From: Fidelibacterota bacterium
Lineage (GTDB): Bacteria > Fidelibacterota > UBA8477 > JABMPR01
Assembly: GCA_021734325.1 (NCBI GenBank)
Contig: JAIPJF010000011.1
Coordinates: 1-64,000, forward strand
Direction of reading: 5' to 3'
DNA length: 64,000 nucleotides
Below the pieces are notes generated by a model. It saw only the letters and a list, made by a program, of their open reading frames with translations, was not told the DNA's origin and searched no databases. Positions within the stretch are counted from its first letter, which is position 1. Every line of letters begins with the position of its first letter. The translations under genes and the position numbers were made by a program. This document shows, one piece after another, positions 3,451-10,722 of this stretch.

Positions 3451-3618
3451 CTAACTACGTGCTAACCCGTTTTTTGTCCACCTTTGTCCCAACAAGTCAG
3501 TCGGGACTTCGGCGTGATAAATATATTGTTCCATGATGTATTCACTGTATAGGCAGCTGTGATGACAGGCAAACCCATCAATATGCCCGGCTGATTTATG
3601 GTTTCGGATATGATCCAT
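3451..3618 (-). CDS. Possible small ORF, 55 residues
   Basis: This frame is below the track cut-off. The middle (DHIRNHKSAGHIDGFACHH) looks protein-like and is rich in His and Cys, but the tail (EVPTDLLGQRW) coincides with a repeat-like GTCCC...GGGAC stretch, so the end may be read-through into a repeat. No ribosome site is evident. It could be the remnant of a larger gene. I do not recognise it. Confidence 0.18.
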   Translation of the reverse strand: MDHIRNHKSAGHIDGFACHHSCLYSEYIMEQYIYHAEVPTDLLGQRWTKNGLARS

Positions 3619-3968
3619 CACAATTTCTCGCTTAAATGTGTGGGGAATGTAGGCTTTTGAGGGGGTAAAACAATTGTGAATTGTGAGTGTTGAATGTAGT
3701 TCTATTTTTTATTTGTGACATGGTTTGAGCTTTTTACACCTCGGCTTGGGGTCAGATGTACAAGGTCAAGGCCTTTCCCCTCGACTACGCTCGAGTTGCC
3801 TCGATCCCCTCAGCGCTCTTTGCGCTCTTTGCGGTTAAGACCACCCTATACCTTATACCACTCCACATTGAGATCCTGAACCCCGCAGTATGCGGTGGTC
3901 GCTTCCCTCGCAGCTGCTCGATCAGCTCGAGGAAGACACAATAGGGGGAGTTTGCGGTTGTCAGTAAT

Positions 3969-3991
3969 CAGAGATTCTTCGCGTCACTTCG
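3969..3991 (-). repeat. Dispersed repeat, GCGAAGAATCTC family (degenerate copy)
   Basis: On the minus strand this reads CGAAGTGACGCGAAGAATCTCTG, sharing GCGAAGAATCTC with the intergenic copies near 11769 and 15769. Related motifs are common in intergenic DNA of many environmental genomes; their origin is not established here. Confidence 0.5.
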
Positions 3992-4087
3992 TTCCTCTCC
4001 GGTCTTTGTCCGCCTTTGCTTAAAGCTTCGTCGTGACTACGCCCTGACAGGCAGAAAGGCACGAATTTAAAATTCTGCGATTAGCCC

Positions 4088-4139
4088 ATGTCTGAGATTG
4101 CCACGCCCCGACATGGCTGTCGGGTCTCGCAAAGACGAT
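4088..4139. repeat. Dispersed hairpin repeat, copy 1
   Basis: The element runs from CATGTCTGAGATTGCCACG to TCTCGCAAAGACGAT. Its centre, 4107-4124, is a perfect hairpin, CCCGACA-TGGC-TGTCGGG. Flanks resemble the widespread TTGCGAG...GCAATCTC intergenic repeats. Compare copies near 15850 and 55331. Confidence 0.65.
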
Positions 4140-4242
4140 ATTCTGGTTCCGCATCCAAACATCTAACATCTAATATCTAACGCCGATCGTCTACCTCCTA
4201 CTTTCACTCTTCTCCTTCACTCATTTTGCCTTACTTTCTGGC

Positions 4243-5076
4243 ATGCCTGCTTTCATCAAAATTTTACGCCCCTTGAACCTGCTCCAGGCGACGCTAGCGG
4301 TGCTGCTCACGACAGCTATTCTCGGTCATGTAGACCAAACCACCACTCTACTTCTGCTCATTTTGTCCGTCATCTTTATCAATGGTGCCGGGAATGTAAT
4401 TAATGACATCTATGACCTGGAGATCGACCGGGTCAATCGTCCCGATCGGCCTCTGCCCTCAGGGAAAATGAAAGTTTCCACTGCCCGCATCTATATGTTC
4501 AATCTCTTTGCCATCGGCATCTTCTGTGCCTCCCTGATCAACCTCATGACCTTCTATATCGCCGCCTTGCTGGCAACGCCTTTGCTCATTGCCTACAGTT
4601 ACAAACTCAAGACCCTGCCCCTCATCGGCAATATCGTAGTATCCTTCATGCTCGGTCTGGCCTTTATCTATGTCGGCTCCGCCTTTGGGAATATGGAAGC
4701 CACCTGGGTCATGGCCGCCCTGGCCTTTGGCTTCACCCTGATCCGGGAACTGGTCAAGGATCTTGAGGACATGGAAGGCGATCAACAGTCCGGTGCCCGC
4801 ACCCTGCCCCTGGTCTGGGGGGAATCGGCGACGGTAAAATTCACCATGGCCCTGATGATGCTCTCCATGGCCCTCTTTCTCCTGCCGGCCATCATTGGGT
4901 CCTACAACAGCCTGTATTACTGGATCGTCCTCATCGGTATCGATCTGCCCATGCTTTATTTCATGGTCCTGCTTTGCCGTGCTCCCGGCAAAAAAAACTA
5001 CAGCCGAATTCAATTATTTCTGAAACTCAATATTTTTGTTGGACTGGCTGCCATTTATCTTGGACGGCCTGTATAA
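4243..5076 (+). CDS. UbiA-family prenyltransferase
   Basis: The 277-residue membrane protein has about eight or nine hydrophobic helices. The first Asp-rich motif is NDIYDLEIDRVNRPDRP (residues 54-70) and the second is DLEDMEGD (173-180); together they bind Mg-diphosphate of the prenyl donor. The NRPDRPLPSG form resembles archaeal-type geranylgeranylglyceryl-phosphate (DGGGP synthase-like) enzymes and homologues in FCB bacteria more than UbiA of ubiquinone synthesis, but the acceptor cannot be told from sequence. The ATG at 4243 is the only good start. It precedes dnaE by 32 bp on the same strand, with no metabolic link. Confidence 0.85.
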   Translation: MPAFIKILRPLNLLQATLAVLLTTAILGHVDQTTTLLLLILSVIFINGAGNVINDIYDLEIDRVNRPDRPLPSGKMKVSTARIYMFNLFAIGIFCASLINLMTFYIAALLATPLLIAYSYKLKTLPLIGNIVVSFMLGLAFIYVGSAFGNMEATWVMAALAFGFTLIRELVKDLEDMEGDQQSGARTLPLVWGESATVKFTMALMMLSMALFLLPAIIGSYNSLYYWIVLIGIDLPMLYFMVLLCRAPGKKNYSRIQLFLKLNIFVGLAAIYLGRPV

Positions 5077-5108
5077 TATTTTTTCAGGGGGCTTAATAAG
5101 GAAGTTTC

Positions 5109-8100
5109 GTGGCCGAATTCGTCCATCTACATAATCATTCACACTATTCCCTGCTGGATGGTGCCGCCCGGATAGACCAGATCATTTCCAAGGTTTCGGA
5201 GCTGGGGCAGAAGAGTTTCGCCCTTACCGATCATGGTAACATGTTTGGCGCTGTGGAGTTCTACAAGACCGCCACCAAGGCTGGCATCAAACCCATTATC
5301 GGCATGGAGGCCTATGTCGCCCCTGCTACCCATACGGAAAAGCGTACCTATTCGGAAGGCAAACGCGCCTACCATCTGGTCCTTCTGGCCAAAAACGAAA
5401 CGGGATACCGCAACCTGCTGAAGCTGACCTCACTGGCCTATCTGGACGGATTCTATTTCAACCCCCGGGTGGACAAGGACCTCCTGCGTCAGTATTCAGA
5501 AGGGCTGATCGCCACGACAGCCTGTCTCAGTGGTCAGGTGACCTATCATGCCGCCCGCGGCGACTATGACCGGGCCAGAGAGCAGGCCCTGGAATACGAC
5601 GAGATCTTTGGCCGTGGCAATTTCTTTCTCGAACTACAACGTCACTTTACCCTGGATGGCCGTGAGCTTGAGCTGGAAGCCATTGCCAGGGAAGTGGTCC
5701 GCAAGGTCTCTGCCGACACCGGCATTCCCCTGGTAGCCACCAATGATTCCCATTATGTGAATGCCGCCCATCATCAGGCCCATGATGCCCTGATCTGTAT
5801 TGGTCGCGGAAAATTTGTCAGCGATACCAATCGCATGAAATACGATACCAAGGATATCTATATCAAGAGTGCCGAGGAAATGGTGGAACTCTTCAAGGAT
5901 GTCCCGGAAGCCATTGAAAACACGCTGCGCATCGAAGAGATGTGTCAATTCAAGCTGGAAACCGGTGTCAATCACATGCCGGAATTCCCCATTCCCCAGG
6001 GCCTGTCCCTCAACGAGTATCTGGATAATCTCACCAAGGAAGGCATGAATCGCCGGGTTAAACAGGTAGATTCCCGTTACAAGGAGCGTTTGGAATATGA
6101 ACTGGATGTGATCAAGAAGATGGGCTTTCCCGGATACTTCCTGATCACCCATGATTTTGTCCAGTATGCCAAGAGTCAGCATATCCCTGTTGGTCCGGGA
6201 CGCGGCTCAGCCGCCGGATCTTTGGTGGCCTATTCTCTGGGTATCACCGATCTGGACCCCTTGAAATACAATTTGCTCTTTGAACGTTTCCTGAACCCGG
6301 ACCGGGTCAGCATGCCTGATATCGATATTGATTTCTGCTATGACCGCCGGGAAGAGGTGATCAATTACATGCGGGAACGTTTTGGTGAAGATTCCGTTAC
6401 CCAGATCATCACTTTTAACAAACTCAAGGCCAGGGCCGTGATCCGTGATGTGGGTCGTGTGCTTGAAATGCCCATCAAGGAAACGGACCGTATAGCCAAG
6501 CTGGTCCCTGAAGAACTGGGGATCAAACTACCCCAGGCCTTAAAAAAGAGCCCGGAACTCAAACAAGCATCTGAAATGGATGAGGTTCACGAAAAACTCT
6601 TCCAATATTCGGAGGTGCTGGAAGGCATGAACCGCAATGCCGGAAAACATGCCGCGGGTCTGGTCATCGCACCGGGAAAACTCACAGATTACATCCCCCT
6701 TTACAAGTCTCCGAAGGATGGTTCGGTCACCTCTCAGTATGACATGAAGGCCATTGAGGATGTCGGCCTGATCAAATTCGATTTTCTGGGTTTGCGGACA
6801 TTGACGGTAATCCAGGAAGCTATCGATCTGATCAAGGAGTTCAAGGGAGACGAGATCGATATTGAGAACATTCCCATGGATGATCCCAAGGTCTACCAGC
6901 TTTTTGCCGACGGTCTTACCATTGGATTGTTTCAGTTCGAATCCACTGGCATGCGGGAATATCTGAAAAAATTGCGACCCACCGCCCTCGGTGATCTGAT
7001 TGCCATGAACGCCCTGTACCGACCAGGTCCCATGGGCAACATCAACGACTTTATCGCCCGCAAGCACGGCGAGCAGAAGGTGACCTATCTTCATCCGCTC
7101 ATGGAGGAGATCCTGAAGGAGACCTACGGTATCATTGTTTACCAGGAACAGGTCATGCAGCTCGGGTCAATGATCTCCGGATTCTCCCTCTCCAAGGCTG
7201 ATCTCATGCGCCGGGCCATGGGGAAAAAGATCAAATCACTCATGGACGAAATGAAGGGTGAATTCATCTCCGGTGCCAGGCGGAACCAGATCAACGAAAA
7301 ACTGGCCAGTCAGATCTGGGACTTGATTGAAAAATTTGCCGAGTACGGGTTTAATAAGAGTCACTCGGCGGCCTACTCGGTGATCGCCTATCAGACGGCC
7401 TATCTGAAGACCCATTATCCAGTCGAATTCATGGCGGCTAACCTGAGTTCGGAAAAGGACAATACTGACAAAGTTCAAATGCTTTTGGCAGAGTGTCGTA
7501 AACTGGGAATCAAGGTCGTTGCTCCTGATGTGAATACCAGCAATGTCCGCTTTGCACCTGGCGAGGGAAAAAGCATCGTCTATGGTCTGAACACCATCAA
7601 GCGGGTCGGTTCAAAAGTAGCGGAAGCCATCATGGAAGAGCGCAAGGAAGGCGGACCCTTTGCATCCATCTTTGATTTTTGTGCCCGGGTAGATACTCAT
7701 AATCTGAACAAGGGTGTTGTAGAAGCTCTGGTTGGTTGCGGAGCCATGGATTCACTGCCTGGAGCACGCTGGCAAAAATTTATGAGTGTGGAAGATGCGG
7801 TCCAGCATGGTCAACGGGTCCAGACCCTGAAAAACACCAACCAGACCGATCTCTTTGGTGGCAGTGGCGGTGAATCGGCCATGATCCGCGAACCCGATCT
7901 CAGTGATGCCCCATCATGGAACAATATGGATATGCTGAACCGGGAACGGGAATACGTCGGCTTCTATCTCACCGGCCATCCCCTGGAAGGCTTTGAGAGC
8001 GAGATCCAGGCTTTTTCCACCATGGATCTTCTGGACCTTACTGCGGTTCATGATGAGCAGGATGTGCGGGTCGGTGGTATTATTTCTTCCCTGAAGATGC

Positions 8101-8569: not shown

Positions 8570-8770
8570 TCATTCATCATCGTCAAAAAGAAATAATTCC
8601 TCGATCGTCTTCCCAAAAACTTTAGCAATATGGTAAGCCATTTTCAGGGACGGGTTGTATTTGCCTTGCTCCAGAAAAACGATGGTCTCGCGGCGCACCC
8701 CGATCAGTTTGGCCAGGGCTTCCTGGGTAAGCCCTTCCCTGGCTCGCAGTTCTTTAATTCGGGTTTTCAT
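8570..8770 (-). CDS. XRE-family helix-turn-helix regulator
   Basis: This small repressor-type protein is almost only an HTH domain: [20 protein letters not shown], then [18 protein letters not shown] place the start at the second Met (MKTRIKEL), matching the family; the track start at 8782 adds four residues. Either way it overlaps the end of the membrane-protein gene upstream, so the two are coupled. Family members of about 66 residues are typically paired with a small membrane protein, as here. It probably represses its own operon; the palindrome at 9197 is a candidate operator. Confidence 0.88.
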
Positions 8771-9167
8771 CGGGGACACCATTTTTTGTATAGTAATACC
8801 AGTACCCCATAAAAATCAGTCCCATGAGGATCAGTCCTGCCACGATGGGAATAATGACCTTGATCTCAGAATCCATCGTGACCATGGCTATGAAAGCCCA
8901 CATGTAGAATGATATTCCAAAGGCTTTTGACTCTGCCTTTTGTTTAATGGACTCGCTTAATTCATCGTCGGCCGGCAACCCCAGTTTCTCGTTTTTCAGC
9001 CGACGGCGGATAACCGGAATGACCAGCAATACCATCAGTATCACGAATCCGGCTGTACCCAGTTCAACCAGAGTTAAGCTTGCCTGGCTGGAATACACCC
9101 ACATTCCCGCAAAAAAGATCACTGTTCCTGCCAACATGGTGATCGTCAGTGTTTTGGTCTTGCTCAT
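8754..9167 (-). CDS. Four-helix membrane protein paired with XRE regulator
   Basis: The 137 residues form two pairs of membrane helices (about 7-26, 31-53, 84-102 and 104-127) separated by a charged cytoplasmic loop ([21 protein letters not shown]). The loop and layout resemble DUF2178-type proteins that commonly sit beside a small XRE regulator, as this one does with an overlap of about 17 bp. Function is unknown. The ATG at 9167 has GGAGGG upstream. Confidence 0.7.
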
Positions 9168-9778: not shown

Positions 9779-9980
9779 TTTCTCACGCCCCGCTGGGGCG
9801 TATTTTTCAGGATAGTTCTGTGGTTTAAACATTCGCGCTACGCTGTAGCGCAGAGAGGTGCTCTCGGTAAAGACTTCTGTGTATTTTCAAGCTGCGACGT
9901 ACTCTGGACTCCGAAGGAGTCCAACACCTCGAACACCAGAAATCACCTTGATCATAACTCTACAGCGTAGCGTGATAAAA
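9779..9980. repeat. 202-bp hairpin-rich direct repeat, left copy
   Basis: This copy matches 10521-10722 at all but four positions. Hairpins in order are ACGCCCC-GCT-GGGGCGT followed by TATTTTTC, which looks like a terminator; GCGCTAC-GCT-GTAGCGC; GGACTCC-GAA-GGAGTCC; and a final CTACAGCGTAGCG that is the reverse complement of part of the second hairpin. The gap between copies is filled by the transposase gene. Confidence 0.93.
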
Positions 9981-9984
9981 AGGT

Positions 9985-10437
9985 CTAGTCTTCCAAGTAT
10001 TTCTGAGCATAGTCAATACCATATTGCTTCAAATACTTGAGGTACTCATTCATGTATGTAACTTTTTTGTGATGTTCTTTTTGATTGGCTATATATTGAA
10101 CAACACGATCAACGCTATGGTGATCGCATGAGAAAGCGCCAAAGCCAATTTGCCACCTGAATCGACCACGCGTTAGATGTCTCTCGTTGATCATACGGGA
10201 AGATTCTGATTTTATTTCTCTCATCAGGTCTGACAATGACTTCGACGGATTTTGCGCTAGGAGCAAGTGTATATGATCTGATATCCCATTGATCCTGATC
10301 GGTATATGCCCCTGGTTTTTTATTATTGCCCCTATATATCCATACAGTTCATCCTCTAACTCAGTTTTAATTTTTGGATAGCCTCTTTTGGTACGGATTA
10401 CAACATGAACGTACAGGCGTGTATACGTATTCGCCAT
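9985..10437 (-). CDS. IS200/REP-associated Y1 (HUH) transposase
   Basis: The 150-residue protein has the full TnpA core: the N-terminal strand LYVHVVIRTKRGYP, the HUH motif as H55-I-H57 (SDHIHLLL), the WQIGFGAFS segment and the catalytic tyrosine Y115 in QYIANQKEHH. Such enzymes cut and join single-stranded DNA at hairpins. No TnpB partner is present, as in IS200 and in REP-associated (RAYT) genes. The start at 10437 has GGGAG upstream. It is flanked on both sides by nearly identical 202-bp palindrome-rich repeats, 4 bp beyond its stop and about 80 bp before its start. All key residues are intact, so it may be active. Confidence 0.93.
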   Translation of the reverse strand: MANTYTRLYVHVVIRTKRGYPKIKTELEDELYGYIGAIIKNQGHIPIRINGISDHIHLLLAQNPSKSLSDLMREIKSESSRMINERHLTRGRFRWQIGFGAFSCDHHSVDRVVQYIANQKEHHKKVTYMNEYLKYLKQYGIDYAQKYLED

Positions 10438-10520
10438 TATAAACTCCCGGTTGATTGGTTTCTGTGAATTGTTATTTCAGATCTGGAAAGATAGTCTGCA
10501 ACCACTTTCAGCAAAAAGCA

Positions 10521-10722
10521 TTTCTCATGCCCCGCTGGGGCGTATTTTTCAGGATAGTTCTGTGGTTTAAACATTCGTGCTACGCTGTAGCGCAGAGAGG
10601 TGCTCTCGGTAAAGACTTCTGTGTATTTTCAAGCTGCGACGTACTCTGGACTCCGAAGGAGTCCAACACCTCGAACACCAGAAATCACCTTGATCATAAC
10701 GCTACAGCGTGGCGTGATAAAA
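10521..10722. repeat. 202-bp hairpin-rich direct repeat, right copy
   Basis: Same orientation as the copy at 9779, offset exactly 742 bp. Four substitutions distinguish it: C to T in the first hairpin, C to T in the second (giving a G-T wobble), T to G before the last hairpin, and A to G within it. The track frame at 10455-10757 crosses this repeat and is not a gene. Confidence 0.93.

Follow-up and report, generated by a model that had tools for sequence, protein, structure and literature searches.

A four-hairpin module flanks a transposase gene on both sides

We analysed a window of 64,000 nucleotides and read its block at 9779-10722, with a probability of roughly three in four, as an insertion between the dtd and cvfB-like genes in which REP-like four-hairpin modules, organised like BIMEs or REPINs, flank a subclass 1.2 HUH transposase gene in a REPtron-like manner. 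The element is most likely REPtron-like with an unrecognised type of REP, which its transposase would bind and mobilise. A 202-bp module is present twice as a direct repeat (98% identity), and its copies sit on either side of a minus-strand ORF, tnpA. Each module contains four hairpins (A, B, C and D) with a 7-bp stem and a 3-nt loop (7/3; C was scored as 8/3), whose centres are spaced by 50, 71 and 52 bp. The features are as follows, with matches to the covariance model R1 (see below) given where they cover a hairpin.

9779-9980, plus strand: left copy of the module, direct repeat, 98% identical to 10521-10722
9785-9801: hairpin A, ACGCCCC-GCT-GGGGCGT (7/3), outermost on the left, then ATTTTT, terminator-like; R1 match 9782-9854 (plus strand)
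9826-9833, plus strand: TAAACATT, one base 5' of hairpin B, matches the end of the CTATAAACAT tag of Bacteroidota hairpins (from the sequence and the tag consensus)
9835-9851: hairpin B, GCGCTAC-GCT-GTAGCGC (7/3), the left hairpin of the preliminary description
9905-9923: hairpin C, TGGACTCC-GAA-GGAGTCCA (8/3); R1 match 9903-9973 (minus strand)
9957-9973: hairpin D, ACTCTAC-AGC-GTAGCGT (7/3, one mismatch), the right hairpin of the preliminary description
9985-10437, minus strand: tnpA, 150-aa Y1/HUH transposase of the TnpAY1 subclass 1.2 type (PF01797, E 7.5e-25; NF033573)
10521-10722, plus strand: right copy of the module, direct repeat of the left copy
10527-10543: right-copy hairpin A, a C-G pair changed to T-G
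10577-10593: right-copy hairpin B, a C-G pair changed to T-G
10647-10665: right-copy hairpin C
10699-10715: right-copy hairpin D, mismatch mended, one T-A pair changed to T-G

A preliminary description of this DNA had singled out B and D as inverted hairpins, each nearly palindromic, and the pair is real. A repeat search returned the inverted arms CGCTACGCTGTAG / CTACAGCGTAGCG at 9833-9848 and 9960-9975 (16 nt, 94% complementary, 111 nt apart), and CGCTACGCTGTAGCG, with up to 3 mismatches allowed, occurs 6 times in the 64 kb where 0.39 occurrences are expected, a count that none of 100 shuffles reached. Five of these six matches belong to the module copies (hairpin B accounts for two, one per reading), and the sixth lies elsewhere. 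Both ends are indeed self-complementary, as B forms a perfect 7-bp stem with its 3-nt loop and D has a single T/C mismatch, which is confined to the left copy. When folded as DNA, the 148-nt inner segment gave z-scores of -4.2 (plus strand) and -5.1 (minus strand) with B-D pairing dominating; in single-stranded form, the alternatives are that the local hairpins are kept or that B pairs with D. The two copies differ at 4 of 202 positions (left/right: 9786 C/T, 9836 C/T, 9959 T/G and 9969 A/G), all of them in stems, which make up 58 of the 202 bases (P about 0.007). To call the changes in the right copy largely G-T wobbles, as the preliminary description did, is fair, given that two of the three changes in B and D lead to such wobbles on the plus strand while the third repairs the mismatch. 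An Rfam search returned nothing relevant.

The position of the modules also bears on two rival explanations. In both copies, hairpin A is followed by ATTTTT directly past the dtd stop, as would suit hairpins that have no part in transposition and instead terminate transcription in both directions or govern RNA stability at dtd and its neighbours. We consider this very unlikely, since the T run is found at A only, terminator-like sites are no more frequent in the region than chance would give (3 vs 1.9), the dtd-cvfB intergenic regions of the same genus have no such hairpins, and the hairpins track tnpA across many unrelated neighbourhoods. Hairpin A itself (9785-9801; 10527-10543) could double as a dtd terminator. 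Read in the sense of tnpA, the upstream module is immediately 5' of the gene, which would fit hairpins that were duplicated by chance and mainly regulate tnpA expression, sequestering its translation or transcription in the manner reported for certain IS200-type elements; equally strong hairpins downstream of tnpA and in solitary units on other contigs make this highly improbable.

The block is a lineage-specific insertion with a recurrent layout

In all 15 genomes of the same genus that were tested, the dtd and cvfB-like genes are adjacent, 74-780 bp apart, and none of these 15 intergenic regions contains tnpA or such hairpins. The block at 9779-10722 is therefore specific to the lineage of the window, and its exact junction cannot be placed because the same-genus intergenic sequences are too diverged. 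Upstream of dtd, the window encodes a small putative membrane protein without a Pfam match (8754-9167, minus strand), and the gene just downstream of this ORF on the same strand is a helix-turn-helix-like coding region. The layout of module, tnpA and module recurs among relatives: at 25 of 74 tnpA loci the gene lies between direct repeats of no less than 40 bp, whose identity reaches 98%. At one relative's locus (L009) tnpA is surrounded by half-modules only, B-A upstream and D-C downstream, so the segment with tnpA and the solitary module contain the same parts in a different order.

The transposase carries the signature of subclass 1.2

TnpA carries the motifs DHIH, WQ and YIANQKEHH and thereby has the signature of TnpAY1 subclass 1.2 (DH[IV]H, WQ and YIxNQKEHH), which it also resembles in length (150 aa against a median of 148 aa), in low copy number with divergent paralogues and in a distribution centred on Bacteroidota (Quentin et al. 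2018, PMC6006769). All three motifs were present in 77 of 80 TnpA relatives. The source genome has four Y1 genes, two of which were aligned with the tnpA of the window at only 29-31% identity. The class 2 RAYT motif YxxxNP is absent, YIANQKEHH being found instead, and the score for NF047646 (32 bits) is below the cut-off of 80.

The predicted structure (mean pLDDT 88.6) has the Y1 HUH fold of IS200/IS605 and best matches the transposases of ISDra2 and IS608 (Foldseek E 3.5e-8), the solved REP-associated transposase 4er8 matching less well. An ordinary IS200/IS605-type element would have subterminal hairpins as well: its end hairpins would be D at one side of tnpA and A and B of the right copy at the opposite side, and the module would have been duplicated by tandem insertion or by recombination between two copies. 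The lineage-specific insertion and the half-modules of L009 are both compatible with such an element. We nevertheless regard it as unlikely, as tnpA is present in one copy with aligned paralogues at 29-31%, whereas insertion sequences of subclass 1.1 are multicopy at about 99% identity (PMC6006769). Moreover, no tnpB was found among the neighbouring ORFs examined, and in relatives the hairpins disperse without tnpA, as do multi-hairpin modules, unlike in IS608 and ISDra2.

In the published classification, subclass 1.2 comprises Y1 enzymes of unknown function that have no REP sequences and are generally without typical IS200 ends (PMC6006769). The hairpins described here contradict the statement on REP sequences. 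The published REP search for TnpAY1 demanded GTAG or GTGG beside the hairpin (PMC6006769) and would therefore miss them: the 5' flank of hairpin B reads TAAACATTC, and no GT[AG]G tetranucleotide stands at the hairpin foot. The mismatch is thus one with the published description and does not speak against membership in subclass 1.2.

Paired, tagged hairpins accompany tnpA across phyla

The 80 TnpA relatives come from Bacteroidota, Ignavibacteria, Cloacimonadota and a few other groups. Up to 400 bp from their tnpA genes, the density of perfect 7/3 hairpins is 2.37 per kb, as compared to 0.15 in shuffled sequence (an about 16-fold difference) and 0.24 beyond 1 kb, and 53 of the 80 loci have at least one such hairpin. 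When intergenic DNA alone is considered, the density drops from 4.1 to about 1 per kb away from tnpA. Many of the relatives' hairpins bear a tag that is asymmetric and CTATAAACAT-like where REPs would have GTAG, and these tagged hairpins amount to 3.7 per kb within 200 bp of tnpA vs 0.07 per kb beyond 2 kb. For most of them, a second hairpin lies some 51 bp upstream as a partner (the distance being 49-52 bp in the majority of units); at 23 of the 80 loci no tagged hairpin was found within 700 bp. A general outward polarity of the tagged hairpins around tnpA was not found, nor was there a consistent excess of G-T wobbles on the tag strand in the relatives, so that the strand could not be chosen by wobbles.

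The pairing is conserved by compensatory change. In an alignment of 46 units, compensatory changes were seen at 14 of 14 pairs (101 cells vs 18 in shuffles), and RNAalifold recovered the identical two helices unaided; these units had been chosen for near-complete pairing, and the percentage of paired positions is therefore not an independent measure. The covariance model R1 was built from these units, which are all of other phyla and include no sequence from the window's genus. On the 64-kb window it gave exactly four matches at E up to 10, all in the two module copies, and it reads each module as two inward-facing units, A-B on the plus strand and C-D on the minus strand. Individually these matches are weak (E 0.03-3 per 64 kb), yet chance hardly accounts for where they fall. 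The match to the tag is partial in the window, with 8 nt at hairpin B and a poor fit at C. R1 gave zero significant matches on sister elements of the same genus, whose hairpins are thus too diverged for it. As A and C have a geometry equivalent to that of B and D in the same module and R1 pairs A with B and C with D, the proposal that B and D bound the unit is not supported.

The hairpin type follows the transposase clade

All four Y1 genes of the source genome are flanked by hairpins, each gene by another type. Conversely, TnpAs of 66-67% identity to that of the window, from two same-genus genomes (loci L008 and L009), have a CTAC-nnn-GTAG hairpin 10-25 bp after the tnpA stop; the position equivalent to hairpin D is conserved after tnpA in L008 and L009, and L009 additionally bears an inverted CTAC-nnn-GTAG hairpin upstream of the gene. 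Searched with up to 2 mismatches in 19 same-genus genomes, the window-type hairpin occurred only at tnpA loci, bar one match; this match sits inside a coding gene and was rejected as a candidate solitary copy. The GGACTCC hairpin of C is also found at two further loci (L032 and L040), and in Crocinitomix catalasitica both flanks of tnpA hold TTGCTACGCTGTAGCAA and TCGCTACGCTGTAGCGA at a distance of 51 bp from each other. The hairpin type is hence co-inherited with the transposase clade and, judged from these sequence comparisons, tracks this clade rather than the genome. The preliminary description had further suggested that the segment bounded by B and D could be the minimal unit recognised by the transposase; the link between the hairpins and tnpA is borne out by the 19 genomes and by L008 and L009, whereas B and D as the ends of the unit are not. 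The fourth Y1 tnpA of the source genome (L003:1510-1980; C8:97809-98147, minus strand) is interrupted by an in-frame TAA shortly ahead of its HH motif and is apparently decayed, and it still has AAACCCATGATTTAAATCATGGGTTT hairpins on both sides.

Solitary units of related families end at their outermost hairpins

In the source genome (84% complete), the 202-bp module of the window has only two copies, both at tnpA, and no solitary copy was found. Dispersal was seen for related hairpins, namely in a sister family (C3) and in relatives. The C3 family of the source genome includes solitary four-hairpin modules on the contigs C1 and C35. When its four module copies (two solitary and two flanking tnpA) were aligned, homology began and ended at the outermost hairpins, which correspond to A and D, with 97% identity in the outer hairpins vs 41-42% in the flanks. 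Checked on this family, the expectation that copies end at the two hairpins of the preliminary description held for the equivalent of D and failed on the left, where A and not B is the end. Hairpin D may thus be a true boundary hairpin, while B is internal and A more likely the left boundary, and B and D as the two unit boundaries were rejected. Inner hairpins of the C3 type were found in 10 of the 19 same-genus genomes (control: 0). A rearranged C3-family copy on contig C3 of the source genome (L118:428-704) consists of two hairpin pairs with about 150 bp of different sequence between them, and resembles a tnpA-bearing unit whose gene was replaced.

Such hairpins are also dispersed far from tnpA in other genomes. 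A strict pattern of tag and hairpin matched 155 sites in 28 of 47 tnpA-bearing genomes, as compared to 1 site for the reversed pattern and 7 when the register was shifted by one base. When 150 genomes from around Flavobacterium were sampled, 77 sites were obtained, 75 of them in genomes that also carry a tnpA like that of subclass 1.2 (18 of the 20 genomes; Fisher p 9e-6). Genome size is a confounder of this association, whose p value is 0.31 among genomes of at least 5 Mb and 0.043 among smaller ones. The solitary units of Flavobacterium sp. DG2-3 and F. ustbae consist of a tagged hairpin, a central hairpin and an inverted tagged hairpin, and the likeness between the units stops at the outer tagged hairpin (over 20 ends, conservation is 0.98 within the hairpin and 0.52 directly outside it). 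Local series of tagged hairpins were observed as well. In Candidatus Parvibacillus calidus (L080, about 3470-6080) they recur every ~237 bp over a stretch of more than 2.5 kb downstream of tnpA, as a large local amplification of the unit, and in Flavobacteriales SKYG25 (L042:3500-4260) about ten of them follow in alternating orientation within 700 bp downstream of tnpA.

A candidate substrate for subclass 1.2 enzymes

The anatomy of the element and its comparison with known systems suggest how TnpA might act at the hairpins. It would bind a hairpin and its 5' flank in single-stranded DNA, as at a replication fork, and its tyrosine would cut beside the hairpin. Hairpin pairs could in this way be mobilised or copied by TnpA as a non-autonomous unit, and the arrangement of tnpA between two modules may have come from such mobilisation events or from recombination between modules. 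In general terms, subclass 1.2 transposases are probably cognate to a widespread, unrecognised class of REPs with paired 7-bp/3-nt hairpins and a CTATAAACAT tag for GTAG, forming REPIN-like mobile units across Bacteroidota, Ignavibacteria, their relatives and the phylum of the window. The shared, covarying and tagged hairpin gives subclass 1.2 enzymes a candidate substrate; the tagged hairpins also connect, within class 1, systems of the IS200 type with those of the REP type and suggest which tag stands in for GTAG. The hairpin and tag sequences were searched for in open-access papers and not found.

Among known systems, the REPtrons of E. coli, Stenotrophomonas maltophilia and Pseudomonas (RAYT/TnpAREP with REP/BIME) likewise have an HUH/Y1 protein between short palindromic hairpins, an own hairpin family for each tnpA, inverted pairs and, in some genomes, dispersed related hairpins. 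The S. maltophilia REP, with its 8-bp stem and 3-nt loop (PMC8266576), has nearly the same geometry as the hairpins of the window. REPtrons differ in that their transposases are of class 2 (YxxxNP) and not of class 1 (YxxxQxxHH), and the hairpins of the window have a CTATAAACAT-like tag rather than a 5' GT[AG]G at the foot and form two-hairpin units with a spacing of about 51 bp. TIRtrons are alike in that a tyrosine transposase (TIRYT) lies between repeats that are partly self-complementary, are not GTAG REPs and in some cases are dispersed (Di Nocera et al. 2013, PMC3733652); TIRYTs are mostly of subclass 2.1, and their common motif is GGGGWSAS. Finally, REPINs, inverted hairpin doublets that are the apparent replicating unit (Bertels and Rainey 2011, PMC3116915), resemble the inverted pairs described here, and the solitary units of Flavobacterium fit this form, but the present units have a third, central hairpin or a four-hairpin module and a far lower copy number.
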